Below, in pieces: positions 22,679 through 59,463 of a DNA stretch of 64,000 nucleotides. Made by a program: the position numbers and the translations under genes. The notes below the pieces were generated by a model, which worked only from the letters and a program-made list of their open reading frames with translations, ran no database searches and was not told the origin of the DNA. Every line of letters starts with the position of its first letter. The first letter of the stretch is position 1. This DNA comes from a virus. The stretch spans positions 22,346 to 86,345 of the IMG/VR virus record IMGVR_UViG_3300048835_000978; one strand, written 5' to 3'.

Positions 22679-22690
22679 CTAGAGTTTCAG
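22679..22690 (-). promoter_or_regulatory. CTAG leader motif before thyX (variant)
   Basis: Minus strand reads CTGAAACTCTAGGAGCAC: the CTAG is 10 nt upstream of the ATG and runs into the ribosome-binding GGAG. A diverged copy of the repeated leader motif. Confidence 0.5.
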
Positions 22691-22712
22691 GAAAGAGGAA
22701 AGGGGTTAAGGG

Positions 22713-23012
22713 TCAGGCCGCCGCCTGTTTCCGCCGGGCGAACTTCACTTGGTTGCGATAGATGCGATCACACTGCTCGTTCGCCTTGTCGGCCGAGCCG
22801 TATGGCCCGATGACACCGACTTTCATCGACTTGTCGAGCACGATCGCCAGCGGCGGCAAGGCCCAGTTCGTGCGATCGATCCAGACTTCTTTGCTCCGGC
22901 CGTCGAAGCAAACCCACCAGCGCGAGCAGAACAGCGCGAAGCCTGTTCGCTGAATGGCCAGGCCGATCTGGATTCCGATGACGACGGCGATGAGGGCGAT
23001 GAGGATGTTCAT
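22713..23012 (-). CDS. membrane-anchored hypothetical protein, 99 aa
   Basis: One N-terminal membrane segment (ILIALIAVVIGIQIGLAIQ) followed by a soluble part with RWWVCFDGRSKEVWIDRTNW and a basic tail. No family recognised. It overlaps the preceding gene by ATGA. Confidence 0.6.
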   Translation of the reverse strand: MNILIALIAVVIGIQIGLAIQRTGFALFCSRWWVCFDGRSKEVWIDRTNWALPPLAIVLDKSMKVGVIGPYGSADKANEQCDRIYRNQVKFARRKQAAA

Positions 23013-23455
23013 TGAGTCGACTGTGCTTTCAGGTAGTGCTCGTACTCCGGCCGCTCCGGGATGTCGATCAGGTGCGGCATTTTTTCCTCGAAGTGGCACA
23101 GCGTCATCAGGTTCCAAATCGCATGACCCAGATCGTCCTCTTCCGTCTTCCCTTCCAGATAGCTGGCGATATGCTCCAGCGCGTGGTTGATCAACACGCT
23201 GGCGGGCATGCCCTTTTTCCAGTTGTGCGGCGGGTACTTCACGGCCCCTTCCGCACAGGCATTGCCGACGCGACGCAGGCCGACAGGGCTGATCAGATCG
23301 AGGCGAGCCTTGGGGCTGCTGCCGCGAACGGCTCCGGTGTCGAACTTCGTGACGGCTTGGTCGTCCATGATTTCCTCGAACCCTCCGTGATAGATGCCGC
23401 CGCACGGCCCGCGAACAGGAATGGCCATGAACGTGCGAATGTTGCTGTCAGCCAT
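23009..23455 (-). CDS. dATP/dGTP diphosphohydrolase-like protein (DUF5664 type)
   Basis: 148 residues resembling the MazG-related family typed as dATP/dGTP diphosphohydrolase N-terminal domain: TGAVRGSSPKARLDLISPVG, then AEGAVKYPPHNWKKGMP, then INHALEHIASYLEGKTEEDD and HAIWNLMTLCHFEE. The Glu/Asp-rich helices would bind metal. Some relatives (MazZ) serve the 2-aminoadenine DNA pathway, but no PurZ is present in the window. It overlaps the previous gene by 8 nt. Confidence 0.65.
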   Translation of the reverse strand: MADSNIRTFMAIPVRGPCGGIYHGGFEEIMDDQAVTKFDTGAVRGSSPKARLDLISPVGLRRVGNACAEGAVKYPPHNWKKGMPASVLINHALEHIASYLEGKTEEDDLGHAIWNLMTLCHFEEKMPHLIDIPERPEYEHYLKAQSTQ

Positions 23456-23864
23456 CGTGATTCCTGCGCGGCAGCGACCCTGGATAGGGATTGCGTGCTT
23501 CCGGCGGCGAGCTGAACTCGGTCGGAATGAAATCGCCAGTCTCGGCGGGCAGATTGGATTGCTCCGGCTCCGGCTCGGCCAGCCTGCGCTGGAGCGATTC
23601 GGGCAACTGGAGCACGAACTGCTCGGCGATCGCGGCGATCTGCTTGACGGCCGCCGGCTCATCGGTCAGCGATTCGTGCAGCAGCTCGCGGAGCGCGGCG
23701 AGCTTGGCGGCCAGGTCTTTTGAGAGCGACGGCTGATTCTGGAGCTTGGCGATTTCAACGCCAATGGCCTGTCGGAATTTACCGGAAATCGCGGCATGCC
23801 GAGTGTACTTCGGTGAGTTGGTCCAGGCCGTGTAGCGGCGGATAGCAAGGAGAAGATCGACCAT
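23448..23864 (-). CDS. hypothetical helical protein, 138 aa
   Basis: First gene of a leftward unit, read from the promoter at 23962-23991 through a 5' hairpin. It begins MVDLLLAIRRYTAWTNSP and is helical in the middle (LAAKLAALRELLHESL). No family recognised. The ATG at 23864 has GGGGG upstream. Confidence 0.6.
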   Translation of the reverse strand: MVDLLLAIRRYTAWTNSPKYTRHAAISGKFRQAIGVEIAKLQNQPSLSKDLAAKLAALRELLHESLTDEPAAVKQIAAIAEQFVLQLPESLQRRLAEPEPEQSNLPAETGDFIPTEFSSPPEARNPYPGSLPRRNHDG

Positions 23865-23893
23865 ATTACTGGCCCCCTAGGACGCGGAGGAAA

Positions 23894-23953
23894 GCGACGG
23901 CGGCGGGAAGCTTTGTCCTTGATCGCCCGAACGCGGCTGGTCGCCGCCGTCGC
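23894..23953 (-). other. 5'-leader hairpin, perfect 12-bp stem
   Basis: GCGACGGCGGCG (23894-23905) pairs with CGCCGCCGTCGC (23942-23953); TTTCC follows. It lies between the predicted transcription start (about 23955) and the start codon at 23864, so it is at the very 5' end of the mRNA. It may stabilise the message or act as an attenuator. Confidence 0.6.
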
Positions 23954-23961
23954 GAGGGCAG

Positions 23962-23991
23962 AATATGGCCGACTGTTATCAAAACTGTCAA
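23962..23991 (-). promoter_or_regulatory. sigma70-like promoter TTGACA-N18-CATATT
   Basis: Perfect -35 TTGACA (23986-23991) with an 18-nt spacer and CATATT as -10 (23962-23967). It points leftward toward 23864 and lies back to back with the rightward promoter at 24005-24033. Confidence 0.6.
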
Positions 23992-24004
23992 CAAGATTTT
24001 TTAA

Positions 24005-24033
24005 TCGTTGCTGATAACGGGGTTAGGTATAAT
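24005..24033 (+). promoter_or_regulatory. rightward promoter TCGTTG-N17-TATAAT
   Basis: A perfect TATAAT (24028-24033) preceded by 17 nt and a weak -35 (TCGTTG). It lies 38 nt upstream of the only plus-strand gene. Confidence 0.5.
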
Positions 24034-24071
24034 CGATGCAGTGGCTCCGGCACTTAATGGAGGGGAACGAA

Positions 24072-24380
24072 ATGGCACACCAACAGAAGCAGAGTTATTG
24101 CTATCGGTGTCAACAGGTGTCGCTGCACACCCGCGACACCTACGAAGTTCCGCACGTACTACACCTAGGGCTGGCGCTCTTGATGTGCGGACTGTGGCTG
24201 CCGTTCTGGATTTTGCACGCAGCGCTGAATGCCTATTCAACGATGCCCTATCGCTGCTCGGTGTGCGGGCAAATTGCCGGCGAACGGATTGATTCGCCGT
24301 GGGCCAGGGCAATCGGTAGGTCCGTGAGAAAATCGCTCAAGCCTGGTGTCAGCGACTCCACGGAGCAGGCGACTCGTTAG
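24072..24380 (+). CDS. zinc-ribbon membrane protein, only plus-strand gene
   Basis: 102 residues from an ATG with a very strong GGAGGGGAACGAA site. CYRCQQVS opens the protein, a hydrophobic stretch (LGLALLMCGLWLPFWILHA) follows and CSVCGQIAG completes the second half of what looks like a split zinc ribbon with a membrane hairpin between. It is divergent from the unit at 23864 and convergent with the gene at 24377-24577, with overlapping stop codons. As the only rightward gene it may be a lysogenic or independently acquired gene. Confidence 0.7.
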   Translation: MAHQQKQSYCYRCQQVSLHTRDTYEVPHVLHLGLALLMCGLWLPFWILHAALNAYSTMPYRCSVCGQIAGERIDSPWARAIGRSVRKSLKPGVSDSTEQATR

Positions 24381-24577
24381 CGGCATTGCTTGTGCTTGCG
24401 CTTGCTTAACTCCCTTGGCCCCAGCCGCTCGTAGCAATCCCCGCAGCGATTGTGCGGCGGATCGTGATGCGGAAACTCCGCGCAGCATGCCTCGCAGATG
24501 AATTCGAGGCAATCATCGCACTGCTTTAGTTCGTCGCGGCTGCACCTGGCGCCGCAGTTGGCACAACGCATAGTCAT
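24377..24577 (-). CDS. small zinc-finger protein, 66 aa
   Basis: Nine cysteines arranged CANCGARC, CDDCLEFICEACC and CGDC with histidines in HHDPPH, suggesting two zinc sites of a RING/B-box-like or zinc-ribbon kind. It overlaps the small terminase-like gene by ATGA and runs convergently into the plus-strand gene. Confidence 0.65.
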   Translation of the reverse strand: MTMRCANCGARCSRDELKQCDDCLEFICEACCAEFPHHDPPHNRCGDCYERLGPRELSKRKHKQCR

Positions 24578-25104
24578 TCCGGCTTGTGTTCAATCTGCTG
24601 CGCCTTGTCGATCTGTTGCTTCAACAGGAACAGCGATTGGAGTTGTTCATCTGTGAGTGATTGCGCCACCCGCTCCGCGAGGGCGTACGGTTGACTTCCA
24701 TCGGGCGTGGTCGGGGCGATCTTGACTGGCTTGTAGAGCCCGAACAGCTTGCAAATCTCGGCGTTGGCGGCAATCACTTCCATACCAGAGTCGGATTGCC
24801 GGATCACGGTTCGCAGCGAGGCGAGCACGTTGGCGACAAGCTCACGCGGGCCTTCGTCGGCGAGGGATAGCAAATAATCTCTCGCGCGAGAAATGTACGT
24901 TTCGGCCTGACGACCACCCACGCCGTATTTCTGCTTCAGCATCGCCTTGATCTGATGCTTATGAAAGTGCCTCGCCAGCATGTCCGCGCAAGCAGCCACC
25001 CGCTCGTTGACATCCTTCGCCGTGGACTTGGGGGTGCGTACCTTCCCGTCCTTCGTGGTGACATACTTGTGACCAGTCTGGGGGTCGGTGATCGGCTCGG
25101 TCAT
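24574..25104 (-). CDS. helix-turn-helix protein, candidate small terminase subunit
   Basis: 176 residues. The N-terminal half has a helix-turn-helix (HQIKAMLKQKYGVGGRQAET), and the C-terminal half (ICKLFGLYKPVKIAPTTPDG) resembles the oligomerisation end of phage small terminase proteins. If so it recognises the packaging site, though it is 8.6 kb from the large subunit. ATG at 25104 in a TGATG overlap. The alternative is a simple transcription regulator. Confidence 0.5.
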   Translation of the reverse strand: MTEPITDPQTGHKYVTTKDGKVRTPKSTAKDVNERVAACADMLARHFHKHQIKAMLKQKYGVGGRQAETYISRARDYLLSLADEGPRELVANVLASLRTVIRQSDSGMEVIAANAEICKLFGLYKPVKIAPTTPDGSQPYALAERVAQSLTDEQLQSLFLLKQQIDKAQQIEHKPE

Positions 25105-25319
25105 CACGCATTGCCCTGGTAAACCTTGATCGGCGGCGGCGGCGGCGAAGGAGTCGGCCGGAGTGACTTCATTGCCTCGCGATCAGGCCACCCAGGCGGC
25201 TTGGAGATTCCATCACCACCACATACCTTGCATGGCACGCGACGCCAGAACTGCCACCAGCGGGCCGATGGGTCCGGCATGGTGCCGCTGCTCCGACATT
25301 GATCGCACCAGTTTTTCAC
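25104..25319 (-). CDS. small zinc-binding protein, 71 aa
   Basis: CDQCRSSGTMP and CKVCGGDG form a DnaJ-like or rubredoxin-like zinc knuckle pair, followed by a proline-rich tail (RPTPSPPPPPIKVY). The GTG start overlaps the previous stop by GTGA. Confidence 0.6.
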   Translation of the reverse strand: MKNWCDQCRSSGTMPDPSARWWQFWRRVPCKVCGGDGISKPPGWPDREAMKSLRPTPSPPPPPIKVYQGNA

Positions 25320-25492
25320 GGCGACCTCGATTGCAAAATAAACATGCAGATCAAAAACGGCGACACGATGAACGTGCCAACCGCGATACCGACTGCAATT
25401 CCTAGTGCGTAGAAAAAACCACAGCGACCACGATCGGAATTCAGATCAAACACACCGAGTCTTGTGTTGATCCGCAAAAGCAAGTCGATCAT
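25316..25492 (-). CDS. 58-aa membrane protein
   Basis: Begins MIDLLLRINTRLGVFD, then has a 25-residue hydrophobic span (FYALGIAVGIAVGTFIVSPF). The ATG overlaps the SET gene stop (ATGA) and its own stop overlaps the next GTG (GTGA), so it is translationally coupled on both sides. Function unknown. Confidence 0.65.
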   Translation of the reverse strand: MIDLLLRINTRLGVFDLNSDRGRCGFFYALGIAVGIAVGTFIVSPFLICMFILQSRSP

Positions 25493-26013
25493 CTTCGCTT
25501 CGCCTTTTTCCTTCGCTTGGCGGCCAGCAACTTCGGCAAGTCCTCTTCGGACACAATGTAGCCCCGGCAGTTATACGAGCCACAGTGACATTTCGGGAAC
25601 TCCCCTTGAAACGGCCAGCCGTAGTCGTAGCACAATTCCTGCCCGGTAGCGATGAAGCACAGAGCGCGCAACTCCCAACAGTGTGGGATGTTGGGATTGG
25701 TGTTCTGGATGCAGTTCGGCGAGCAGGAGTGGTTGACCAGGCCCCCCGGCATGTAGGGCTCCAGGATCATGCGATGATCGTCCAGTTCCATGCAGTAATG
25801 CGAGCCATAGGGCGATCGCTTGGTGTCTGGAATCAGCCGGCCGTAGATTCGCATGACCAGCTCGTCCGGGAGAAAATCGCGCAGGGCGATCACAGAACGG
25901 CCAGCGTTGGGCGTGGTGATGATTTCAAAATTCGAGTAGAGATAGTCGTCCGTGCCGCGGCCATCGGGGTCGGTGAAGCGCGCGCGGGGGTTATTCTTCT
26001 TCGTCTTCGCCAT
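25489..26013 (-). CDS. SET-domain protein lysine methyltransferase-like
   Basis: 174 residues with a complete SET domain: GRSVIALRDFLPDELVM, the knot motif NHSCSPNC at 94-101, CYDYG at 128-132, and a post-SET zinc site CHCGSYNCRG at 142-151. SET enzymes transfer a methyl group from SAM to protein lysines. The N-terminus is basic (AKTKKNNPRAR). Phage-encoded SET proteins are rare. A Lys-rich H1-like protein is encoded 2.4 kb upstream and is an obvious candidate substrate. ATG at 26013 is preferred to one at 26043 because it overlaps the ParB-like gene less. Confidence 0.8.
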   Translation of the reverse strand: MAKTKKNNPRARFTDPDGRGTDDYLYSNFEIITTPNAGRSVIALRDFLPDELVMRIYGRLIPDTKRSPYGSHYCMELDDHRMILEPYMPGGLVNHSCSPNCIQNTNPNIPHCWELRALCFIATGQELCYDYGWPFQGEFPKCHCGSYNCRGYIVSEEDLPKLLAAKRRKKAKRR

Positions 26014-27133
26014 CGTTTTCGTCTTCTGTTTCGTCGGGGTCAAAGTACAGGAACACCGGGTCGCCCGTTTCCGGGCAGAGAGCCCAGAAATTGTGCGTGT
26101 CGGTCGGCACGGTCATTTCGCGAATCGGAATGTAACCATGGGCGCCGCCGCAGCGATCGCAGCAAGGGATCGATGAATAGGGTTGCTCTTCGGCCTTTTT
26201 CGGGTCGGCCTGGATGACGCGCATGGCGCAGAGCGAATCGAACACGCCGCGGCCGTCGATGATCGTGCGGTCCTGCTCGGTCCCTTGGTCCAGCGCGCAG
26301 GCAAAGGCATCGCGTTGAATGCGATCTTTGAAAACGAGCACGGCATAGAAGCCTGGATCGTCGCGGTCCCCGGTGGAAGAGACTTGCTTCTGGGTGCGGT
26401 CGGTCGCCTCGCGGATTCTCTCGGCCAAGTCCTCTAAGTCAGGCGCGCGATCCTCGAATCCTTCGTCGCCAAAGAGGCGGTAGTATTCGCCCAGGTCAAA
26501 GCCCGCTTCCTCGATGCCGATCTTGTCATCGGCGAAGAGAGATTTCAGTTTGTCTTGATCGTACTCGCCTTGCATGAGCGCGTTGGAAAGTGCGGTCATG
26601 GTTTCCAGGTGAGTTTTTTCGTCCATGTCGACCACGGCGACGTGCAGCCGGTAGTTGGTCCCCTTGTGGTGCGAATCCATGATCGAGAGACGCTGGTGGC
26701 CGCCGACGAGATAGCCGTTGCGTTTGTTCCAGACGATCGGCTCGATCAGGCCGACGCGCTTGATCGTCGATTGGAGCTTCTTGCGGGCCTTGGACGTGAT
26801 GGTTTTCGGGTTTTTCGGGTGCGGCTTGAGATCGCGCCGGTGCTTGACCTCGAACGTGAATTTCTCCAGCTCGGTCAGCGCGGCGGGCGCAGTGTCTTTA
26901 GCGCGCGAGGACTTCGCGGCGGCTGGAGAGGGTGTTTCAGAGGGAGAGGGGTCGCCGGCGGCTTCTGCGGGCTCGGCCTGTGGGCTGCCTGTGTGATCGT
27001 CGTGTGATGGCTGTGGGGCTTCTGCGGGCTCCCCGGTGCCAACGACTGGCTCTCCGGCCTCACTGGGCGGCTGAGGCGGCTGCTGCTTCGCCTTGCGGGG
27101 CTTCCTGGCCTTCGTCTCGTCAGTTAGTTCCAT
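25991..27133 (-). CDS. ParB/sulfiredoxin-fold nuclease-like protein
   Basis: 380 residues. Residues 1-90 are Pro/Ala/Glu-rich and disordered. Then comes a ParB N-terminal domain: DLKPHPKNPKTITSKARKKL, GLIEPIVWNKRNGYLVGGHQ and RLSIMDSHHKGT. The C-terminus has a CDRCGG pair and a very acidic end. Such proteins often sit with PAPS-reductase-like proteins, as here, in phages and mobile elements, where they may act in DNA modification or degradation. It is not a partition gene on this evidence, as no ParA is near. Confidence 0.75.
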   Translation of the reverse strand: MELTDETKARKPRKAKQQPPQPPSEAGEPVVGTGEPAEAPQPSHDDHTGSPQAEPAEAAGDPSPSETPSPAAAKSSRAKDTAPAALTELEKFTFEVKHRRDLKPHPKNPKTITSKARKKLQSTIKRVGLIEPIVWNKRNGYLVGGHQRLSIMDSHHKGTNYRLHVAVVDMDEKTHLETMTALSNALMQGEYDQDKLKSLFADDKIGIEEAGFDLGEYYRLFGDEGFEDRAPDLEDLAERIREATDRTQKQVSSTGDRDDPGFYAVLVFKDRIQRDAFACALDQGTEQDRTIIDGRGVFDSLCAMRVIQADPKKAEEQPYSSIPCCDRCGGAHGYIPIREMTVPTDTHNFWALCPETGDPVFLYFDPDETEDENDGEDEEE

Positions 27134-27699
27134 GTTCTGCCTCTGATTACGTTGGCGATCGTTGCAGCACTGACACCAAACTCACGGCCGAGCATTGCGT
27201 AACTCATGTCGCCAACGGCATATTTGCGGCGAATCTCACTCGCCTTAGCTGTGGTCAGAATGGCGCTGCCGTTTAGTTCGCCCTTGTTGTGTCGAGTCTG
27301 AGTGTTATGCCTGATTCGATCTCGATAATTCTCCATTGGCGTGCCCCACTTGATTTCGCTTAACCGATTGTCGGACTTATCGCCATCCTTATGACGACAC
27401 TCCTGACCCGGCGGACACGGACCAACGAATGCTTCGAGAATAAGGCGATGAACCAAACAAAGTATTTTCTTGCCATCGCGACACAGGCTGACTCGGTAGT
27501 ACCCGCCTGATGTTTTAATTGGACGAAGCTGATGCCACGTATCACTTAAATAAGATTCGCAGCCACCACCTTTTTTGCCCCTGACTTTCCGGCAGCTCCA
27601 AACAGAGCCATCATCGCCTGCCCTATAGCCAGGGAACCGCTTAATCGGCCTGTACTGGACGGGCACGGTCTTTTGCTGCTGCATGCGTTCCAATTCCAT
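27124..27699 (-). CDS. NUMOD4/HNH homing endonuclease
   Basis: 191 residues. KRFPGYRAGDDGSVWSCRK is a NUMOD4-like start, followed by VHRLILEAFVGPCPPGQECR and KDGDKSDNRLSEIKWGT, the HNH core, and a C-terminal helix-turn-helix (MLGREFGVSAATIANVIRGR). It overlaps the 3' end of the PP-loop gene by 59 bases, consistent with insertion between two adjacent genes. The ATG at 27684 is an alternative start. Confidence 0.8.
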   Translation of the reverse strand: MELERMQQQKTVPVQYRPIKRFPGYRAGDDGSVWSCRKVRGKKGGGCESYLSDTWHQLRPIKTSGGYYRVSLCRDGKKILCLVHRLILEAFVGPCPPGQECRHKDGDKSDNRLSEIKWGTPMENYRDRIRHNTQTRHNKGELNGSAILTTAKASEIRRKYAVGDMSYAMLGREFGVSAATIANVIRGRTWN

Positions 27700-28360: not shown

Positions 28361-28382
28361 CGGTGAAGCCCCGAACGCGCAC

Positions 28383-28427: not shown

Positions 28428-28462
28428 GAAACAGTCGAGTTGAAGAGACGGACGCGAGAGGC

Positions 28463-29311: not shown

Positions 29312-29326
29312 GGGTTGGGCTCCGAA

Positions 29327-29338
29327 CTAGGTTTTGGG
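29327..29338 (-). promoter_or_regulatory. CTAG leader motif before DUF488-like gene
   Basis: Minus strand CCCAAAACCTAGTTCGGAG; CTAG 15 nt from the ATG and directly after the terminator at 29347-29370. Confidence 0.55.
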
Positions 29339-29346
29339 AAAGCGCA

Positions 29347-32532: not shown

Positions 32533-32545
32533 CACTAGGGTTTTC
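32533..32545 (-). promoter_or_regulatory. CTAG leader motif before helicase gene
   Basis: Minus strand CTGAAAACCCTAGTGCAAGGA; CTAG 16 nt from the ATG. Confidence 0.6.
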
Positions 32546-32562
32546 AGGAGTGACGCAATGTT

Positions 32563-33300
32563 TCAGGACACTAAACCTAAATGCCTCCAAGCCTTTCCAT
32601 TCAATATCCTGTATATAGTTGATTTATTCACGCACAATTTATTAGCTATATCGATAGCAGACCGCCTGCCAGACGTGATGTCGTTAAAGGCGGTTCTGAC
32701 TTGCATTTCCGTGAGCTTGTGCATCGGCTGATCTTCGCCGACAGCTCGCTTATAGCTTTGTGTTCCATGAACATACATATCTGCTGAATTCTCGTTCCGT
32801 GTCCCCCATTGAATATTGTTGAGTCTGTTGTTTGATCGATCGCGATCTGGAAAGTGACGGCACACCATCCCTGGCGGTCGCGGTCCCACGAAAGTTTCTA
32901 ACACTAGGTCGTGAACGTACCTCATCTCCGGTGGAGACTGCAATGAAACGGCAAGGTATCCACTAATAGGATTTTTGGCTGGGCGTCTCTTTTTCCATTC
33001 GCCACAGATCATCGACCAAATCGATCCGTCCGTTCCAGCAGCATAGTTTTCCCTTCCAGGGACTAACTTGTACCTCACTCCCGGCTTGCTAGGCGGAAGT
33101 GGCGATAGTAATTCTGGAAATAACCTCCTCCACATCGTGTTTACGTAGATGTTGATACGGACTCCATTGCGGTAAAAGCCGATCGCACCACTACCTGGAA
33201 TCTTGAGCTTCTTCCACGAGCCGGATACGTCGGACCAGATGGATCTATCTGACCCAATGGCGTACTGGCTGGCATTAGGAATTCTTCGACGCTCTATCAT
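32563..33300 (-). CDS. HNH homing endonuclease, 245 aa
   Basis: Two NUMOD4-like units (QYAIGSDRSIWSDVSG and NYAAGTDGSIWSMICGEW) precede an HNH core (VHDLVLETFVGPRPPGMVCR ... DRSNNRLNNIQWGT) and a C-terminal helix-turn-helix (LCVNKSTIYRILNGKAW). It is inserted between the helicase and the gene at 33310-33918. Confidence 0.8.
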   Translation of the reverse strand: MIERRRIPNASQYAIGSDRSIWSDVSGSWKKLKIPGSGAIGFYRNGVRINIYVNTMWRRLFPELLSPLPPSKPGVRYKLVPGRENYAAGTDGSIWSMICGEWKKRRPAKNPISGYLAVSLQSPPEMRYVHDLVLETFVGPRPPGMVCRHFPDRDRSNNRLNNIQWGTRNENSADMYVHGTQSYKRAVGEDQPMHKLTEMQVRTAFNDITSGRRSAIDIANKLCVNKSTIYRILNGKAWRHLGLVS

Positions 33301-38429: not shown

Positions 38430-38440
38430 ACTAAGGTTTA
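38430..38440 (-). promoter_or_regulatory. leader motif variant before 37861-38415 gene
   Basis: Minus strand CATTAAACCTTAGTTCTGGAG; one base differs from the CTAG core, 15 nt from the ATG. Confidence 0.45.
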
Positions 38441-38479
38441 ATGAAAAGCAATCTGCCCAACAGTCAGCCGCCCGGTAGA

Positions 38480-39068: not shown

Positions 39069-39078
39069 ACTAGGGTTT
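39069..39078 (-). promoter_or_regulatory. CTAG leader motif
   Basis: Minus strand TTTCCTTAAACCCTAGTGGAG; CTAG 14 nt from the ATG at 39055. Confidence 0.6.
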
Positions 39079-39112
39079 AAGGAAACGTGAATGCCGCCAG
39101 GCGGCAGCTGGT

Positions 39113-39365: not shown

Positions 39366-39584
39366 CTACTCGGCGATGCGAACGAAGTGCGGAATGCCAT
39401 CCGCGTCGTCAACTAGAACGTGAACGGCTTGCGGCTTCATGCGAAACCTCTCGTAAACTGCCCGATCGGCGTCCGGCCGTCGCATGGCAATCTGCATGAG
39501 GCGCTGAGCCTCGTCGAAGTCGCCAGCGTTGCGGGCCTTGAAAGATGCTTCGAGTAAATCAGCCGTGGTTGCTTCGTTATCCAT
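39366..39584 (-). CDS. small hypothetical protein, 72 aa
   Basis: Helical N-terminus (TTADLLEASFKARNAGDFDE) resembling a single TPR-like unit, then a short beta part. It overlaps the HNH gene upstream by 8 nt. Confidence 0.55.
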   Translation of the reverse strand: MDNEATTADLLEASFKARNAGDFDEAQRLMQIAMRRPDADRAVYERFRMKPQAVHVLVDDADGIPHFVRIAE

Positions 39585-40233
39585 ATTGTCTCCTTTCTCC
39601 TGACTTAATCCGCCTTACATGGCGAACTGTTATACCGAAAGTCTTGGCTATTACCGACAAGCTAATGCCTCTTTCGATCTTGTTGTGTATCCGCTTAATA
39701 TCTTCATTGCTCAATCGGGCCATTCCATGCCTTTCCCCACGGTTTGATGTCCCATGATTAACACGATCCATTTGGTTTGAGCTAACTGTGCCCCACCGAA
39801 GGTTGTCTAGTCGGCAGTCAAGCGGATTGCCGTTTCTGTGACACCCCTCATAGCCTTGTGGCCTGGGACCAATAAAAGTTTCCAAGACAAGAATATGAAC
39901 TTTCGTAAGTCGCGTTTGCGACCCATTACATAGCTTGACGGTCAAGTATTCTCCAGATACTCCGGGACTGAGAAGTTGGCCGGCGTACCCACCTTTATAT
40001 CCAACATCTCTCCTTAGTCGTCCAAGATTGGATACTGAATACACTTGCTCAAACCCGACAACTGGGCGCCACAACTCGCCTTTAATGAAGTTCCTCCTCC
40101 CCATGTCCTTAATAATTAATTCCTTGGCGACAGCTCTCGCCGCTGCTCGCGTCACATACGGCCCTAGATTGCAACTGCCACCAGTAACCCACCAGGACTT
40201 GTCGGCACGACGCTGAATTCTCAGTTGAGCCAT
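39577..40233 (-). CDS. NUMOD4-HNH endonuclease fused to a small N-terminal domain
   Basis: 218 residues. The first 48 residues (AQLRIQRRADKSWWVTGGSC ... ARAVAKELIIKD) look like a separate small domain. Then a NUMOD4 start (GELWRPVVGFEQVYSVSNLG), HNH core (VHILVLETFIGPRPQGYEGC ... LDCRLDNLRWGT) and a C-terminal helix-turn-helix (SVIAKTFGITVRHVRR). The fusion suggests the endonuclease gene inserted into or behind a small gene and captured its start. It overlaps the previous gene by 13 nt. Confidence 0.75.
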   Translation of the reverse strand: MAQLRIQRRADKSWWVTGGSCNLGPYVTRAAARAVAKELIIKDMGRRNFIKGELWRPVVGFEQVYSVSNLGRLRRDVGYKGGYAGQLLSPGVSGEYLTVKLCNGSQTRLTKVHILVLETFIGPRPQGYEGCHRNGNPLDCRLDNLRWGTVSSNQMDRVNHGTSNRGERHGMARLSNEDIKRIHNKIERGISLSVIAKTFGITVRHVRRIKSGERRQYG

Positions 40234-40514
40234 GCCGCCTCCAGTCTGGCAATCTCTGAACCCCAGTCGGTTCCGTCTACTGCAAGCGTGAAGTATACAC
40301 GTTGCCCGCACCTGAGCCTTTTGAGAACAATTGGCTTGTCAGCCAGTGACTCAACAGCCATGGCAAGCAGCCAGTGCGTTAATTCGTCGACACTCTGTTC
40401 GCAATCAACCGGCTTGCTTTTCTCGATAGCTTCACTGAGTAACTTGAAATCCATTCGAGAAACGCCGGGCATGCCAACTGCAAACTGAATAGGAATGTGA
40501 AGGTACGCCATCAT
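40221..40514 (-). CDS. hypothetical protein, 97 aa
   Basis: MMAYLHIPIQFAVGMPGVSR, helical middle (SVDELTHWLLAMAVESLADK) and a beta end (RVYFTLAVDGTDWG). Start overlaps the previous stop by ATGA. No family recognised. Confidence 0.6.
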   Translation of the reverse strand: MMAYLHIPIQFAVGMPGVSRMDFKLLSEAIEKSKPVDCEQSVDELTHWLLAMAVESLADKPIVLKRLRCGQRVYFTLAVDGTDWGSEIARLEAAWLN

Positions 40515-41977: not shown

Positions 41978-41988
41978 ACTAGGGTTTT
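41978..41988 (-). promoter_or_regulatory. CTAG leader motif
   Basis: Minus strand TTTCCAAAAACCCTAGTGAGG; CTAG 14 nt from the ATG at 41964. Confidence 0.6.
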
Positions 41989-42026
41989 TGGAAACGAGAT
42001 TGGAAACGGGAATCGAGAGCCAGCGG

Positions 42027-42248: not shown

Positions 42249-42259
42249 ACTAGGGGTTT
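42249..42259 (-). promoter_or_regulatory. CTAG leader motif
   Basis: Minus strand CTGAAACCCCTAGTGGAG; CTAG 13 nt from the ATG at 42236. Confidence 0.55.
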
Positions 42260-42283
42260 CAGGACCGGCCGCATCGCGGCGGC

Positions 42284-43567: not shown

Positions 43568-43578
43568 ACTAGGGTTTC
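43568..43578 (-). promoter_or_regulatory. CTAG leader motif
   Basis: Minus strand TTTCCGAAACCCTAGTTCGAGG; CTAG 15 nt from the ATG at 43553. Confidence 0.6.
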
Positions 43579-43606
43579 GGAAATGAAGGACAGCGGGCGA
43601 CGGCTG

Positions 43607-45913: not shown

Positions 45914-45925
45914 ACTAGGGTTTTT
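45914..45925 (-). promoter_or_regulatory. CTAG leader motif
   Basis: Minus strand TTTCCTAAAAACCCTAGTGG; CTAG 12 nt from the ATG at 45902 and directly after a terminator. Confidence 0.6.
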
Positions 45926-45940
45926 AGGAAACAGAGAGAG

Positions 45941-46726: not shown

Positions 46727-46729
46727 TGA

Positions 46730-48638: not shown

Positions 48639-48650
48639 AACTAGGGTTTG
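48639..48650 (-). promoter_or_regulatory. CTAG leader motif
   Basis: Minus strand TTTCCTCAAACCCTAGTTC; CTAG 17 nt from the ATG at 48622. Confidence 0.6.
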
Positions 48651-48673
48651 AGGAAAGATGGTGCCAGCCCGGC

Positions 48674-49385: not shown

Positions 49386-50248
49386 GTAGGTGGTCGATTT
49401 GATCTGTGGTGTTGCACTTCGGTCCCGTCGTTTATCCCCTGCTAGTTCTGGCTCTCTTTCCCAGAGAGCATCGGGGAACGTCATTCACGACTGGTGCCGC
49501 ATTCCTACCGCCATGGTTCCCATGGCTAGCAACGCTGGAAGCACTACTCGGCAGCCCGGTGTTTTTAATGCTCGGTGGCATTCATTTATGGATGGGCTCG
49601 GCTTTCGTGCGGACATGGCGACTGGCGCCGTTCAGTCCGTTGCGAAGGATCGATTGATCCGTTTGGGTTTGTGCTATCGGCATCGCAGAGGCGAGAGGGA
49701 GATTCGCCCGGTGCCAAGTGTGCGGCTTGGCGTTGGGCTCTTGCATTCTCGCGGGCGGCTTCGACTGACTCTTTCCCCGTAGGTACTCGTGCGACATGCG
49801 GCTGGTGCGATGCTACAGATTCGACTTTTGTTTGGCGTCACTTCCACGACGCTATTGTCTGGCGATCACTACTCGCCAGCTTTCGCCCTTCGTTTTTGCT
49901 CATCGGCTAGGTCGCGCCGACTGGGGGCTACTCGCAAGTCCCGCCCGTTCTGCTGCTCGTTTCGCTCGCAATCAGTGATTCCAAGATCAGGGTAAGGCGA
50001 TGATTCGCCAGAGACGCAATTCTCAGCTCGGGTTGATGCACATCAGCCCGGCCCCCCTGCTCGGTTTTGATTAACTAAGACGCGCTGGCAATCGCCCAGA
50101 ACGGTGAGACTGACGGGCTGTTCGGGTGAACGTACTGGAAAGACTAGGTAAAGACCAGGAACCCATCGGCCCCATGATCGTTCTGGACTGGGGCAGGTAA
50201 TGGCCATAAGGAAATTTGGCCAAAGGGAAGTTAGATTGTCAAAGAACT

Positions 50249-50283
50249 GACTAAACTATAGTTTAGTCATCGACCAAAAACAA
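50249..50283 (-). promoter_or_regulatory. promoter with overlapping perfect 20-bp palindromic operator
   Basis: Palindrome at 50249-50268, ending on each side with GACTAAAC/GTTTAGTC. It covers a -10 TATAGT (50255-50260); 17 nt away is a -35 TTGTTT (50278-50283). The central TAAACT-AGTTTA half sites match those at 63734-63747. Confidence 0.65.
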
Positions 50284-53579: not shown

Positions 53580-53592
53580 CACACTACTCCTC

Positions 53593-53603
53593 GCTAAGTT
53601 TCA
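53593..53603 (-). promoter_or_regulatory. leader motif variant (CTTAG)
   Basis: Minus strand CCTGAAACTTAGCGAGGAG; core differs by one base, 14 nt from the ATG at 53579. Confidence 0.4.
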
Positions 53604-53615
53604 GGAATTGCAGAC

Positions 53616-54662
53616 TCAGACGCCGTTAAAGAAGTCCCGAACATCCTTTCCTTTGCTCTTGGTGACTTCATAAGGCAGGGTCACGTTTCGCAACTCGGCG
53701 GCCACGCCATGCAGCGCGTACAGCCATTTCTTGGCCCCGGTCACACCGGCCTCGTCGGTGTCGTGAGCCACGAATACTTTGCGGCCGGCGAAGAAGCCGG
53801 CAACATGGGGCGGGATGTCGCCTGTCTCGCTGGATGCGTTACAGGTGACAAGGTGAGCGTCGCGCTGCTCGGCGGGAATCTTGCCGAACAGCGCGAGCAT
53901 GTCGGTGGGGCCGGCTGTTTTCCAGATCAGCTCGATGCGCGGGTCATTGAGCATCATCTGTGACAGCGCATGCGTGCCCATCATGGCTCCGAATGTCGGA
54001 CCTACGGACAGCATTTTCGGCTGCTTGGCAGGACGATCGGGACCGGCGGGAATATCGAAGTGCGTGCCAGAGATATTCCAGATGACCCAGGCGACCGGAT
54101 CGGCGTCGAGTAATTGATGCCCAAAGGCCGGCAGCGCGACGACCTTGTAGCGGCCGATGTGCCGCTCTTTGGTTTTCCTGTCGCGGTAGCACGGCCAGCG
54201 AGCGACGCGACCGCCGTTGAGCTTGACCGCTTCCAGCGTGATGCCCGGCTTGTGCTTCTTGCACCACATTTCAGCCAGGACATCGTTACCAGAGTCCCAT
54301 TGCTCGAACTCCAGCGCTTCGCGCGGGTCTTGAGGGCGCCGGCCGCGGCCGATTTCTACGCCGGCTTTTTCTGCGAAGTGCTTGCGGGCATCGACCCAAT
54401 TGGACCACTGCCCGTTGCCGTAGCGGACGGCGAAGTCCCACAGAGACAGCGACTCGCCATTGCCTTTATCCCCATAGCGGCCCGTTTGCACGCTCACCCA
54501 GGCCGAGGCGGTCGATTCTTCGCGGCCCCTGGCGTAGCAGGCTGCGTAGCCATTGTCGCGCACGCGGCCGTCAAACTTGACGCCGAGTGCTTCGTATTCA
54601 ACTATGATGTCGAGGCGCGACAGAATCTCATTGTTAATGTCCTCGAACTTTTTGCCGGACAT
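53616..54662 (-). CDS. TOPRIM DNA primase
   Basis: 348 residues. The TOPRIM domain includes WKTAGPTDMLAL and KVFVAHDTDEAG, the latter with the DxD metal motif. In the first motif the usual catalytic Glu of (V/I)EGPTD is replaced by Ala, which is odd for an active primase. The N-terminal 100 residues are the domain that is also inserted in ThyX. It makes RNA primers for replication or has a regulatory role if inactive. Works with the helicase at 51503-53341. Confidence 0.75.
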   Translation of the reverse strand: MSGKKFEDINNEILSRLDIIVEYEALGVKFDGRVRDNGYAACYARGREESTASAWVSVQTGRYGDKGNGESLSLWDFAVRYGNGQWSNWVDARKHFAEKAGVEIGRGRRPQDPREALEFEQWDSGNDVLAEMWCKKHKPGITLEAVKLNGGRVARWPCYRDRKTKERHIGRYKVVALPAFGHQLLDADPVAWVIWNISGTHFDIPAGPDRPAKQPKMLSVGPTFGAMMGTHALSQMMLNDPRIELIWKTAGPTDMLALFGKIPAEQRDAHLVTCNASSETGDIPPHVAGFFAGRKVFVAHDTDEAGVTGAKKWLYALHGVAAELRNVTLPYEVTKSKGKDVRDFFNGV

Positions 54663-55098
54663 GTTTCTCGCCCTCCTTGGGCTGGATGGCGGCGAGCACT
54701 GCCGCCAGCGACTTCTCCGCGCCGGTGGCGCGGGCGAATTCGCAGAGCCTGCTATTCAGGACCGCAATCTCGCCCGACACGAGCGAGCTGCGGTATTTCT
54801 TGCGGACGATGCGGAACAAGCCTTCGCGATCCGCGATCGTATAAAAATCAGTGCCTCGCACGCGCTCGGCCAGCGGGTGATCCGACAGGTCGTCGTCGGC
54901 CCCTTGCTTGGCCGCTTCGGCAGTCTCACGCTGCTCGCGGCGGATGCGCTGCACTTCCTCGTACAACAGTGGGTGATTGCTTTTCAGCAGCAAGCGGCCG
55001 TGCCCGTTTGCGCAGGCCAGGCCGCTCTCGGTGATCGAGTACAGTTCATTGCACTGCGGGCAATGCGTCTCATGCTGCTGGCTCTTGGCCCGCGTCAT
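54634..55098 (-). CDS. zinc-binding hypothetical protein, 154 aa
   Basis: THCPQCNELYSITESGLACA gives a CxxC...C zinc site near the N-terminus. The rest is helical (EEVQRIRREQRETAEAAKQG) with FYTIADREGLFRIVRKKYRS. No family recognised. Overlaps the next gene by 29 nt, so it is tightly coupled in the replication unit. Confidence 0.6.
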   Translation of the reverse strand: MTRAKSQQHETHCPQCNELYSITESGLACANGHGRLLLKSNHPLLYEEVQRIRREQRETAEAAKQGADDDLSDHPLAERVRGTDFYTIADREGLFRIVRKKYRSSLVSGEIAVLNSRLCEFARATGAEKSLAAVLAAIQPKEGEKHVRQKVRGH

Positions 55099-55732
55099 TG
55101 GTGAATTCCTCCATGTGCTTGACGATCGTGACCGACTTGCCGCGGCCAACGCCTTCGAGCTGCACGAAATGACCGTTGTGCTGCTGGCGATAGGCTTCCA
55201 GTTCACCGAAGGTATTCAGGCCGTGCTTGCGAGCCAGCTTGGCGAGTCCTTCCGGCAGGAATTCGTCGACCTCGGCGTCGAGCACGTCGTCGCCGAAGCT
55301 GCTCAGGTCGACATTCGGCCGCTCCGTCGTGGTGCCAGTCGCAGTGGGGTCGTGGGCGATGATGCCGGCGGGAGTGGTCGTGCTGGTTGCTCCTGGCGGC
55401 ACAGTCTGCTTGGCCTTGCGGGTCCGCTTTTTGGCGGCAGCCTTGGGCGGCGACTTGCCGAGAATGCTTTCACGGACGGCCGCGGCCAACAGCCCGCGAG
55501 AGACTTCCAGTTCGACCTTGGCGTCGGCCAGCATTTTTTTCAGGTCTTTGGACTGGATGATCTTGGCTTCGATTTCCATGACCCGCTGCTCGTCCAGGCC
55601 GACCGTCTCGCGCAGTCGTCCGATTTCAGCCTCCAGCGACAGGTCTTTGACTGGCGACTCGGCAGCGGCCGACTCCTCGATCGCCTGGTTGTCACTGCCG
55701 TTGTCGCTCACACCCGCAGTTGAAATCCGCAT
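55070..55732 (-). CDS. coiled-coil replication-region protein, 220 aa
   Basis: An N-terminal coiled coil (LEAEIGRLRETVGLDEQRVM), a KRTRKAKQT basic stretch, a Thr/Pro linker, and a C-terminal part ending GELEAYRQQHNGHFVQLEGV. Start: ATG at 55732 with AGGAG 8 nt upstream is preferred to the ATG at 55738, which overlaps the ERCC4 stop. Function unknown. Confidence 0.6.
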   Translation of the reverse strand: MRISTAGVSDNGSDNQAIEESAAAESPVKDLSLEAEIGRLRETVGLDEQRVMEIEAKIIQSKDLKKMLADAKVELEVSRGLLAAAVRESILGKSPPKAAAKKRTRKAKQTVPPGATSTTTPAGIIAHDPTATGTTTERPNVDLSSFGDDVLDAEVDEFLPEGLAKLARKHGLNTFGELEAYRQQHNGHFVQLEGVGRGKSVTIVKHMEEFTNDAGQEPAA

Positions 55733-55734
55733 CG

Positions 55735-56280
55735 TCATTCTCCTCGTGTCAATTTGTCGAATGCCCTGCACAAAAATCGATACGCGAAACGCTCGGCCCA
55801 GAGCCGGCTGCCAGCGAAGTACCAGGGCACGTTGTACTTCGATGGCCAGCTCGCGGCCGTACCCAAAATGGTCGATTGCTTGCCGGACAGCGGCGGCAGG
55901 CTGTCCAGAATGGAATCCAGCGAGTCTTCGACCACCACGCAACAGAAGCCGCCGGAGTTGACCATGGCGGCCATGCGCTCGTGCTCGCGCTCGAAGCGGA
56001 CATGACCACCAGTGACCGAACCAATGAAGTCAGCACCGCTCTTGCGTTCGATCGTCAGCCGATCTTCCAGGCCGCTGATCGTGTAGTCGCCTGTCTTCAG
56101 TTCGACGCGACGGGTGCGGATCATCACCGGCACAAATGAGCCCTTCGGGCCGAGTCGATCGTAGATGCCTTGAAACGACCAGGGGGCTTGCTCCGAATTG
56201 TCGACCAGGGCAATCCATGGCGCGACGTACAATTCGGACGACGGCTGAGCTGGCGGCTTGTCAGTTGTGCGAACACGCAT
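55735..56280 (-). CDS. ERCC4-type nuclease
   Basis: 181 residues. ALVDNSEQAPW and RRVELKTGDYTISGLEDRLT followed by IERKSGADFIG are the signature acidic and ERK motifs of the ERCC4/XPF/Mus81 nuclease fold. Phage relatives cut branched or flap DNA during recombination or packaging. It follows the RecD-like helicase gene. Confidence 0.8.
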   Translation of the reverse strand: MRVRTTDKPPAQPSSELYVAPWIALVDNSEQAPWSFQGIYDRLGPKGSFVPVMIRTRRVELKTGDYTISGLEDRLTIERKSGADFIGSVTGGHVRFEREHERMAAMVNSGGFCCVVVEDSLDSILDSLPPLSGKQSTILGTAASWPSKYNVPWYFAGSRLWAERFAYRFLCRAFDKLTRGE

Positions 56281-56297
56281 AGTCACCGATCCTTGGT

Positions 56298-58691
56298 TTA
56301 AGCCTCGATTGCCTCATGCTTGTCAGTGAGTTGCATCGCATCGTCCAGCATTGCGCGAAGCGACTCGACGAGAAATGTCTTGCGGCCGGGCAGCACGACC
56401 TTGCGGCACATCTGTTTGAGCGTGCCCATCTTTCCAACCAGGAACGTCACAAACTTGCCGCGGGAACAGGCGGTAAACGCCCATTCGCGACAGCAGACAC
56501 CATAGTCGCCGGTCGCTCCGGGGTACTCGTCCAGCGCGACGATGACGCACGCTGTTTCGCTGCCTTGCATCTTGTGGCAAGTGCAGGCGTACCCCAGGTC
56601 CAGGTCACAGCCGGCCTCGTTGTCATCGTTCTTTTTCTTGTCGTCGTCGTCGTCGCTGGCCCGGCCACGAGGGACCAACACAACGCGCTTCGGATTCTGG
56701 AACTCAACGATCGTTTTCTTCTCATGCACTTCGAGCACGCGGCCGAACTCGCCATTTGCGACATACGCCTTGGGCTGACTGTCTTCGGATGCAGACTCAA
56801 TGATGCCGTCCGGGTCCGTGTCGCTGTTGGGCGCGATCGGCAGTTGCGAGTTTTTCAGGCAGATCAACTTATCGCCCACGCGAAACGGCGAGCCCTCGAT
56901 GCCCTGGCCGCTAGGATTCAGCTCGTGCTGGAGCAGTTTATTGAGCGTCTTGCGAGCCAGGGTCGACTTGGCGTTGACCGCCACGATGACTTGCGTGTCC
57001 CAGATCGGGTCGAATGCCTTTGTTTCGCGAATCGTGCGGACGAGCCCGATAATCCGCTCGGCGGCATTGCCTTTGGTGGCTGGAATGAGTTTGAGATTCT
57101 TGGGCGGCGCGTCATGCGGGGCGAGCGAGTCATCCGTTGGGATAATCGGCTCGTCCAAGCAGATTGCCCGGCAGGCCCGGACGATCGTACCGCTGTTGCG
57201 GCGGATTTTCGTGAGCCTGCCAGTCGGGATCATGTCGAGCAAGTCACACAGCGGAGCGCCGTGCTCGATGGGCGGCAACTGATTGATGTCGCCAACGAGC
57301 AATAGATTCGTGCCACGCCTGATCGCACCGAGCAGCATGGCGAACAGCCCGGTGCCGACCATGGACATTTCATCGACGATAATGAAAGAGTGAGGGAGTG
57401 GATTGTCAGGCCCATGCTCGAATTCCCATTCGCCGCCGTCGACCGCCTTGACGCCCAGCAGACGGTGAATCGTCGTGGCGCTAATCTGAATGCCCCTCGA
57501 TTGCATCGCTTCACTGGCTCGCATGGCAGCCTTGCCCGTCGGCGCCACGATAGCCAGCGGGGCAGCAGGGAAGTCATCGAGAATCGCCTTGACCAGTGAG
57601 GCTACGGCGGTTGTTTTGCCAGTGCCCGGCAGCCCAGTCAGGATGCCGATCGAACCGGCAATGGCCTTGGCCAGTTCGATGCGTTGGTGCCAACGAGCGT
57701 CGTCATTCGTCTCTTCGTCGTTCCGCAGATTGTCGAACGCGGGATGATCGGCGTCTGGCCAGTTGCGTTCCCAGGAAAGCATTTCGACGACCTTCGCCGC
57801 CACGGCTTTTTCGCTATTAGCCTTGCGAGCGTCGGCAATCCAGAATTGCTCGCGATCGTCCCAGCGCGTCGCCAACAGCTTCATGTCGATTGCTGTCTTG
57901 ACCGCGCCGGCCGGGTCAATCTCGGCCCCGGAAATTCGCTCGCGCAAACCGCGAATGATTGCATCGGCGGGCAGCCAGGTATGTCCTTCCATGTCGGAAG
58001 CGACGGTATGCCAGGCGCAGTACGCCTGACGCCGCAAGTCGCCCGGCGGATGACCGAGCTTGAGGTACATGTTGTCGGCGCGCAGGAAGCCACACCCCCG
58101 GAACCGCATGATCTGGTAGGGGTCGTCTTTGAGCATGTTGACGGCTCGCGCACCCCAGGCTTGAATCGCTTTCTCGACCGTATTGCGAGGGAAGCCGTAG
58201 CCGTTAATTAGGGCCATTAGCTCGATCTGGCAGGATTCGAGTCCCTTCCAGTGTTCGAGCTGTTCCGCCGCGGCGATCGCGGCGTCGAGTGAAAGTCGCG
58301 GGATTGCATGAGCCACGATTTCTGGCGACTCGCGGAGCATGCGCACGGCGTCCTGGCCATACTTCGACCACATCGCCGAGGCGATCGACTGGCCAACGCC
58401 CTTGCACTGCTCCAGGTAGCGAATGATGCCTGAGCGCTCGACGGGCTCGCAGCGACGGAACGACGAGAACTTGAAGCCCTTGCCGTGCTTGGGATGCGAC
58501 TCCCAGTAGCCGAAGAAGAAATACTCGCCACCCTCCAGCAGCTCGCCATATTGAGAGTTGCCGAGGATGCGGAACACTGCCGGCATGGTGCCGCGATCGA
58601 GCGACGTGGGGCGAGCGTCGGCGATGGCGAACGTGTCGCGACGCCAGAATTCGCCCGCGAAAATAGCGCGGATTTCGATGTTTTTGGCCAT
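56298..58691 (-). CDS. RecD-like SF1B helicase
   Basis: 797 residues. Walker A ILTGLPGTGKTTAV, motif II SFIIVDEMSMVG, motif III VGDINQLPPI and a late CTCHKMQGSE motif identify a RecD2-type 5'-3' helicase. The first 350 residues have the helix-hairpin-helix part of RecD2 (LEQCKGVGQSIASAMWSKYG). A DDDDDKKKNDDNEAG insert late in the chain is odd. It probably serves recombination or replication restart. ATG at 58691. Confidence 0.85.
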   Translation of the reverse strand: MAKNIEIRAIFAGEFWRRDTFAIADARPTSLDRGTMPAVFRILGNSQYGELLEGGEYFFFGYWESHPKHGKGFKFSSFRRCEPVERSGIIRYLEQCKGVGQSIASAMWSKYGQDAVRMLRESPEIVAHAIPRLSLDAAIAAAEQLEHWKGLESCQIELMALINGYGFPRNTVEKAIQAWGARAVNMLKDDPYQIMRFRGCGFLRADNMYLKLGHPPGDLRRQAYCAWHTVASDMEGHTWLPADAIIRGLRERISGAEIDPAGAVKTAIDMKLLATRWDDREQFWIADARKANSEKAVAAKVVEMLSWERNWPDADHPAFDNLRNDEETNDDARWHQRIELAKAIAGSIGILTGLPGTGKTTAVASLVKAILDDFPAAPLAIVAPTGKAAMRASEAMQSRGIQISATTIHRLLGVKAVDGGEWEFEHGPDNPLPHSFIIVDEMSMVGTGLFAMLLGAIRRGTNLLLVGDINQLPPIEHGAPLCDLLDMIPTGRLTKIRRNSGTIVRACRAICLDEPIIPTDDSLAPHDAPPKNLKLIPATKGNAAERIIGLVRTIRETKAFDPIWDTQVIVAVNAKSTLARKTLNKLLQHELNPSGQGIEGSPFRVGDKLICLKNSQLPIAPNSDTDPDGIIESASEDSQPKAYVANGEFGRVLEVHEKKTIVEFQNPKRVVLVPRGRASDDDDDKKKNDDNEAGCDLDLGYACTCHKMQGSETACVIVALDEYPGATGDYGVCCREWAFTACSRGKFVTFLVGKMGTLKQMCRKVVLPGRKTFLVESLRAMLDDAMQLTDKHEAIEA

Positions 58692-58713
58692 GGCTAGGAT
58701 TTCAGGAGAAGAC

Positions 58714-58742
58714 CCAGCGGGCCGGATCACCCAGCCCGCTGG
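58714..58742 (-). terminator. hairpin after SSB-like gene
   Basis: Nine-bp stem CCAGCGGGC/GCCCGCTGG with a short loop; the tail GTCTTC is not a clean T run, so it may be a weak terminator or processing hairpin. It ends 22 nt before the helicase ATG. Confidence 0.5.
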
Positions 58743-58803
58743 TGAAGGAGTCAGCCAGAAACGCGCGTCCTGCACGAATAGGGAGCCTGGCTAACGATGC
58801 GGA

Positions 58804-59439
58804 CTACTTGAATGAATCCCACACCGAGCCGCCCGTAGCGACCGGCTGCGTCGACTGCTGCGTCGTCTTGTGGGTCGGAGTCGGCTTGTTTTCCTGACTG
58901 TGGCCATTGCCATTGCTAGCCGGTGCGCCGCCGAGTAAGGCGATCCACTCCGGGTCTTTCGGAATGCCCTCTGCCTTTTTCGACAGCGGGTGCATGAACG
59001 ACCAGCCGGCGTCGGGGAACTTCTTGTCAGCGCTGGCGCCGGTGCCGGGCCGCTCGTCGATGTCGGCGCAGTATTGCCGACCCACGACCTCCTCGATCGG
59101 AATATCGACTTCCTCGCCGCGAGCCTTGGCATCCTGCCACTGCTGATCGGTCGCCAGATCGGTCGCGATCGTGAACAACCGCAGCGCGTTCTGTGCGCCT
59201 TCGGACGTGCTGTCCGGGTTAAAGTAATTGGTCATCGTGCGGCCGGTCTGGTCGCCATCGGCGGGATTCTTCGGCTTACCAGCCAAGACAACCGCCTTGA
59301 TCGACAGCTTGCGGCCTTTGTCGCCGTCTTTCAGCTCGTAGCTCTCGACGCTGAAATGATAGCGGCCGGGACGAGGCATCTTGCCGCCGCCGCTGCTTTC
59401 GCCTTCACTGACGTTATCCGACTTGCATCGCAGACTCAT
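58804..59439 (-). CDS. DUF669-like SSB-type protein, 211 aa
   Basis: PRPGRYHFSVESYELKDGDK, then KLSIKAVVLAGK, MTNYFNPDS and VVGRQYCADIDERP follow the pattern of DUF669-like phage ssDNA-binding proteins (an OB-fold with a disordered tail). The C-terminus is Thr/Gln/Ser-rich and ends GGSVWDSFK. It precedes the RecD-like helicase. A leader motif lies upstream. Confidence 0.6.
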   Translation of the reverse strand: MSLRCKSDNVSEGESSGGGKMPRPGRYHFSVESYELKDGDKGRKLSIKAVVLAGKPKNPADGDQTGRTMTNYFNPDSTSEGAQNALRLFTIATDLATDQQWQDAKARGEEVDIPIEEVVGRQYCADIDERPGTGASADKKFPDAGWSFMHPLSKKAEGIPKDPEWIALLGGAPASNGNGHSQENKPTPTHKTTQQSTQPVATGGSVWDSFK

Positions 59440-59452
59440 TGCATCACTCCTA

Positions 59453-59463
59453 ACTAGGTTTCC
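59453..59463 (-). promoter_or_regulatory. CTAG leader motif
   Basis: Minus strand TTTCCTGGAAACCTAGTTAG; CTAG 14 nt from the ATG at 59439. Confidence 0.55.

Follow-up and report, generated by a model that had tools for sequence, protein, structure and literature searches.

A start-associated motif in an uncultured phage genome and a candidate multi-target antisense RNA that may read it

The nearest known arrangement to the one analyzed here, and the only described one that was found, is that of the start-associated sequences (SAS) of cluster K mycobacteriophages, short asymmetric sequences present in 11-19 copies, all in one orientation, at the start codons of non-structural genes (PMC3203893). 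Four of these phages, Anaya, Adephagia, Angelica, and CrimD, each carry in addition one reverse SAS copy that is unlinked to any gene and was left unexplained (Pope et al., 2011, PMC3203893). The function of the SAS was unknown when they were described (PMC3203893) and was still so in later work (PMC11373665; PMC12699233). At the RNA level, the c4 antisense RNA of P1 and P7 and the sar RNA of P22 are structured molecules that carry complementary bases in their loops, pair around a ribosome-binding site, and block translation (PMC12197685). Phage small regulatory RNAs also include VpdS of VP882 and PreS of lambda, of which VpdS affects both phage and host mRNAs (PMC12197685).

The window considered here, which is the whole stretch of 64,000 bases that was analyzed, covers positions 22346-86345 in the record of an uncultured virus (86,345 bases; GC content 58.7%). 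It contains a start-site motif with the consensus (T)TTCC-(TG)-AAACCCTAGT, followed after 0-5 nt by GGAG and then by ATG, in which n(1-3) lies between TTCC and AAACCCTAGT (the TTTCC-to-AAAC spacer is 1-3 nt across the sites) and UAG is invariant. Twelve genes carry the motif or a variant immediately 5′ of the Shine-Dalgarno (SD) sequence, with 0-5 nt from TAG to the first GG. An earlier note on this DNA had listed the same 12 ATGs as preceded by the motif, and the motif or a variant, followed by an SD, does lie upstream of all of them; TAG and ATG are, however, 10-18 nt apart and not the 10-17 nt given there, and the copies at four of the ten starts that were presented as carrying the motif itself, 22668 (AAACTCTAGG), 29311 (AAAACCTAGT), 42236 (AACCCCTAGT), and 59439 (GAAACCTAGT), are variants.

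The motif is real. Exact copies of AAACCCTAGT occur six times, on the minus strand only, and at no more than one mismatch the window holds 11 matches against 0.9 expected, a number reached in none of 100 shuffles, which bears out the earlier view that its use is too regular for chance. A PWM search for TTTCC-n(1-4)-AAACCCTAGT over the whole 86,345-base record returned, at a score of at least 15, 14 sites on the minus strand and none on the plus strand, with a clear score gap below them; when this genome-wide count was set against controls, as had been proposed, Markov-1 simulated genomes gave a mean of 0.47 sites and a maximum of 3 at the same score. The SD-linked starts account for 12 of the 14 sites (Table 1). 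The other two, at 58693-58709 and 63686-63701, had been missed, and the second of them may be a chance match, given that about 0.9 one-mismatch matches are expected in the window. The premise that CTAG is a scarce tetramer holds in a mild form only, with 62 occurrences seen where 94 are expected.

Table 1. Motif sites, features of the proposed RNA locus, and related features. Positions are those of the window, except for Anaya.
Feature	Sequence	Position	Strand	Context
Motif	TTTCCTGAAACTCTAGG	22678-22694	minus	10 nt from TAG to ATG 22668; ThyX-like gene (Pfam Thy1, E 3.5e-27)
Motif	TTTCCCAAAACCTAGT	29326-29341	minus	5′ of ATG 29311; after terminator-like hairpin 29371-29354
Motif	ACTCCTGAAAACCCTAGT	32534-32551	minus	5′ of ATG 32518; ResIII/SNF2-type helicase
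Variant	TTTTCATTAAACCTTAGT	38430-38447	minus	5′ of ATG 38415
Motif	TTTCCTTAAACCCTAGT	39069-39085	minus	5′ of ATG 39055
Motif	TTTCCAAAAACCCTAGT	41978-41994	minus	5′ of ATG 41964
Variant	GGTCCTGAAACCCCTAGT	42249-42266	minus	5′ of ATG 42236
Motif	TTTCCGAAACCCTAGT	43568-43583	minus	5′ of ATG 43553
Motif	TTTCCTAAAAACCCTAGT	45914-45931	minus	5′ of ATG 45902
Motif	TTTCCTCAAACCCTAGT	48640-48656	minus	5′ of ATG 48622; AAA ATPase; strongest predicted antisense-loop pairing, -17.7 kcal/mol
Variant	ATTCCTGAAACTTAGC	53593-53608	minus	5′ of ATG 53579
Variant	TCTCCTGAAATCCTAGC	58693-58709	minus	Abuts ATG 58691, without SD between; RecD2-like helicase
Motif	TTTCCTGGAAACCTAGT	59453-59469	minus	5′ of ATG 59439
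Motif-like	ACCCCTAAAACCTAGT	63686-63701	minus	Noncoding leader, 5′ part of proposed RNA
csrA-like gene		62736-62882	minus	PF02599, E 5.4e-19 at 62736-62879
Proposed antisense-loop RNA		63500-63723	minus	About 200-220 nt, noncoding; MFE z-score -2.16; ends inferred from promoter and terminator
Intrinsic terminator of proposed RNA		63505-63530	minus
Predicted hairpin	GCGGUUU-UCUAGGGUUU-GAACCGC	63577-63600	minus	Apical loop 63593-63584; the record's only reverse motif core
Sigma70-like promoter	TTGACA-N17-TAGAGT	63730-63758	minus	Sole promoter-like match in window 45-64 kb
Operator-like palindrome	TAAACTTTAGTTTA	63734-63747	minus	Overlaps -10; near-perfect repeat of perfect palindrome 50252-50265
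Small Cro/CI-type helix-turn-helix gene		63755-63976	minus	Directly upstream of promoter/operator; fold judged by eye from sequence
Anaya anti-SAS hairpin	loop CCUCCUAUCC	L106:29862-29914 = JF704106 59861-59913		Conserved in Anayavirus-type genomes

All 14 PWM sites fall within 22.7-63.7 kb, the non-structural half of the genome, and the structural part, with its genes for portal, capsid, protease, and tape measure, is free of them, the whole record having been scored. No gene body in the window contains a match at 0-1 mismatch, as against the similar numbers inside genes that random occurrence would give. The gene string is compact and most sites occupy intergenic gaps of 36-140 nt. Genes with names among those tagged encode a ThyX-like enzyme, a ResIII/SNF2 helicase, an AAA ATPase, and a RecD2-like helicase. 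In its mRNA context the motif is more accessible than the same position at 93 control starts (0.68 vs 0.52, p 0.002), with composition partly controlled.

The main rival account of such sites is a phage-specific promoter, recognized by a single-subunit RNA polymerase or by a phage sigma factor or activator, at which transcription would start at TAGT or immediately after it so that the mRNA begins at the SD; a promoter for a phage-modified polymerase was also among the earlier suggestions. The shared orientation of the sites and their position ahead of genes fit this account, as do the few sigma70-like promoters in the region, the element length of 15-18 nt, which resembles T7-type promoters, and the location of several sites just 3′ of terminator-like hairpins (29371-29354, 43608-43589). 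Against it, no RNA polymerase or sigma family was recognized among the predicted proteins, and a search with PF00940 (T7-type RNA polymerase), run without a positive control and on an incomplete record, gave no match; because the record is incomplete, a polymerase could be missing from it. The internal spacing of 1-3 nt and the distance of 0-5 nt to the first GG are together a poor fit to a rigid promoter, each mRNA would carry its SD at the very 5′ terminus, and the antisense loop described below would be left without explanation. We consider a promoter unlikely.

The variable spacing inside the motif favors recognition as RNA over recognition as a rigid DNA site, and it also bears on the least likely of the explanations, that the motif is a DNA repressor site acting as a roadblock inside a long operon in the manner of L5-type stoperators. 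Sites in one orientation, intergenic, near starts, and confined to the non-structural half would suit a roadblock, and the record does encode HTH regulators. Spacing that varies and tight coupling to the SD do not suit it, nor is there a second class of the sites at promoters, the sigma70-like promoter carrying a different palindrome, and we hold this explanation to be very improbable.

If the motif is read in the mRNA, a protein could be the reader, either the phage CsrA or another RNA-binding protein that would control translation of the whole set. The csrA-like gene looks intact and keeps, as judged by eye, the RNA-contact residues matching L4 and R44 of E. coli CsrA, and a GGA is present in the SD after nearly every motif. 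A GGA within an SD is generic, however, the ANGGA core was found by inspection at only 2 of the 12 motif SDs, and CsrA accounts for neither AAACCCTAG nor TTTCC. The suggestion that the motif is the target of a translational regulator is therefore supported in kind, while CsrA, which would leave the conserved AAACCCTAG unread, is probably not that regulator; a protein reader of any sort appears quite improbable.

A different reader is suggested by the distribution of the motif core. AAACCCTAG is present in six copies in the whole 86,345-base record and its antisense-orientation counterpart, CTAGGGTTT, in one: of the seven places at which CTAGGGTTT occurs, six are the plus-strand complements of exact sites and one, at 63592-63584, is on the minus strand. 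This reverse copy is predicted to lie in an apical loop of 10 nt, UCUAGGGUUU, closed by a 7-bp stem (the hairpin by itself, -8.9 kcal/mol), with the loop apical in both the MFE and the centroid folds, the stem GCGGUUU/GAACCGC as in the MFE, and the loop predicted to be mostly unpaired (mean 0.75) across all transcript ends tried. As a measure of chance, the intergenic hairpin loops of the genome contain 0.37% of all 9-mers and 0.8% of the permutations of this 9-mer. One antisense copy, placed in the loop of a hairpin, suggests that the regulator is an RNA, a kind of reader that the earlier suggestions did not include.

The hairpin lies between the Cro/CI-like gene, which ends at 63755, and an HNH/AP2-type gene, and it is flanked by promoter-like and terminator-like sequences (Table 1). 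The interval folds more stably than shuffled versions of it (z-score -2.16). We propose, with moderate confidence, that these start-associated sites act in the mRNA, where a regulatory RNA encoded by the phage itself reads them through an antisense loop. A noncoding RNA of about 200 nt would be transcribed leftwards from the sigma70-type promoter at 63758-63730, stop near 63505, and display UCUAGGGUUU in its hairpin. Nine loop bases (CUAGGGUUU) would pair with AAACCCUAG, which in about 12 non-structural genes precedes the SD by 0-5 nt, and this pairing, overlapping the 30S footprint, would change the translation of the whole gene set together, most likely reducing it. Repression is the default expectation because of where the pairing falls, and activation is also possible. 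The operator beside the Cro/CI-like gene suggests that the RNA may be under the control of the developmental switch of the phage. A 22-bp perfect palindrome, TGACTAAACTATAGTTTAGTCA, at window 50248-50269, shares its core with the operator at 63734-63747 and is likely to be another operator bound by that HTH regulator. A search of 63400-63880 against Rfam gave no match at E<=5.

Duplexes between the loop and the individual sites are predicted at about -10 to -18 kcal/mol. The best 8 predicted loop targets among 113 gene starts all bear the motif, although this ranking is circular in part, since loop and motif are complementary. The loop has mismatches at several sites (29311, 42236, 59439, and 53579), and substitutions in the 9-mer, about 6 wobble-compatible and 5 mismatching, are uninformative and were not used as evidence. 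TTTCC and the T after TAG are conserved and are not accounted for by pairing with the loop, and a search of the record for complements to the TTTCCTGAAAC part returned, besides these sites, a single unrelated position (43031, plus strand). A target hairpin in which UUUCC pairs with GGAG and holds the motif in its loop gained no support from an arm-swap test, which showed no coevolution of the two arms (-2.83 kcal/mol for native and -3.14 kcal/mol for swapped arms, p 0.69), and we therefore make no claim of loop-loop kissing. Predictions of full-length RNA duplexes, in which long spurious pairing dominated, were set aside. Pairing by an antisense loop is the best reading, since it explains the SD adjacency, the strand bias, the single reverse copy and its placement in a loop, the promoter and terminator flanks, and the flexible spacing. 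The earlier interpretation is supported in part, its emphasis shifting from a promoter or CsrA to a probable multi-target antisense RNA.

A similar arrangement is present in a second, unrelated group, the Anaya-type phages of cluster K. The reverse SAS copy of Anaya (L106:29871-29883) lies in a 385-nt intergenic region with a z-score of -5.96, where CCUCCUAUCC makes up the entire apical loop, 10 nt in length, of a long hairpin and has 9 nt complementary to the SAS; further very stable hairpins lie alongside it in this region. In Adephagia, late transcription begins in the interval homologous to the Anaya hairpin region (PMC11373665). Among 17 genomes, Anaya and the homologous regions of 16 further phages, a perfect anti-SAS loop is retained in 10 and is missing or altered in 7, and the idea that every cluster K phage carries such a loop was therefore rejected. 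In the 10 loop-keeping genomes, 93% of cells in the stem are paired, against 36-45% in slid controls, and two pairs have changed on both sides; as possession of the loop was the criterion by which these genomes were chosen, its invariance carries no weight as evidence. The SAS of Keshu, Shandong1, and Amgine are of the ordinary kind, and the right halves of these genomes contain no other reverse copy. By eye, with a single U bulged out, the loops of Ekdilam, Amgine, and Shandong1 would still match the SAS over about 9, 7, and 7 bp, respectively. No published report of an RNA at this interval was found in the part of the phage literature that the search covered.

The record itself is probably incomplete, since Pfam scans of the predicted proteins found portal, capsid, protease, and tape measure and no terminase family, and no end repeats were found. 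Searches for relatives bearing the motif in IMG/VR and phage records (megablast in phages, tblastn with six large proteins, a related-locus search with four, IMG/VR scans for motif and hairpin patterns, and blastn of the RNA region) found none, returning only identical contigs, very distant homologs, and chance matches; two IMG/VR contigs are 100% identical to the record over 17-22 kb. The csrA-like frame has an apparent rare AUC start after AGGAGG (GCC AUC UUA GUU CUC UCC CGG). Other non-structural proteins (window 21262-63322) include a SET domain (E 3e-11), ankyrin repeats (7e-13), a PAPS reductase, an ERCC4 nuclease, and the N-terminal domain of a dATP/dGTP diphosphohydrolase, and HNH/NUMOD4/AP2-type homing-endonuclease-like genes are found among the minus-strand genes at 20726-21265, 32563-33300, 39577-40311, and 62876-63532. 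A 142-aa protein (gene 16504-16932, minus) has a region resembling the C-terminal domain of RNA polymerase alpha (16540-16677, PF03118 E 1.7e-7, above the curated cut-off) and is possibly a mimic of the host alpha CTD.

More tentatively, and with rather less than even confidence, the start-associated repeats of unrelated phages may be docking sites for a noncoding RNA, encoded by the phage and carrying a single antisense apical loop, that would retime the translation of an entire set of early genes. For cluster K an early-to-late switch is perhaps involved, as suggested by the position of the RNA where late transcription starts. Known phage antisense RNAs are mostly single-target, and if the proposal is true it would represent a compact, RNA-only regulon, the translational counterpart of a repressor that has many operators. 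It would also give a testable answer to the function of the cluster K SAS, open since 2011. Cluster K mycobacteriophages can be cultured in M. smegmatis and RNA-seq data for them have been published, and this partial second instance in cultured phages makes the antisense-loop idea testable. More cases could be sought as a repeated start-proximal motif with one reverse copy in the loop of an intergenic hairpin.

Compared with known systems, the motif resembles the stoperators of L5 and cluster A in its many one-oriented sites (13 bp in stoperators) within short intergenic gaps, but stoperators are repressor sites in DNA and are uncoupled from the SD. Promoters of T7-type single-subunit RNA polymerases are likewise asymmetric elements of 15-18 bp upstream of many genes in the same direction; here, by contrast, the internal spacing varies, no polymerase is recognizable, and the SD lies directly at the element. 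For VpdS and PreS we know of no comparable series of near-identical sites placed where the phage's own genes begin. The proposed RNA resembles the c4 type in that its complementary bases lie in an RNA loop, here a predicted 10-nt apical loop, but it has no Rfam match, and c4 and sar each have a single target, ant, located close to the gene for the RNA, whereas one loop here would serve about 12 separate genes over 37 kb. No DNA similarity between this phage and a cluster K phage was detected, and the SAS differ from the present motif in several respects: their sequences are unrelated to it, the 13-nt SAS (GGGATAGGAGCCC) contains the SD while the core here lies 5′ of the SD and is accompanied by an extra TTTCC, and several SAS-bearing cluster K phages are without the antisense loop. 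The two arrangements are nonetheless alike in having many one-oriented, start-proximal copies in non-structural genes (here 14 on the minus strand and none on the plus strand) and a single reverse copy away from gene starts, which for CTAGGGTTT is predicted to occupy a 10-nt loop, as in Anaya-type phages.
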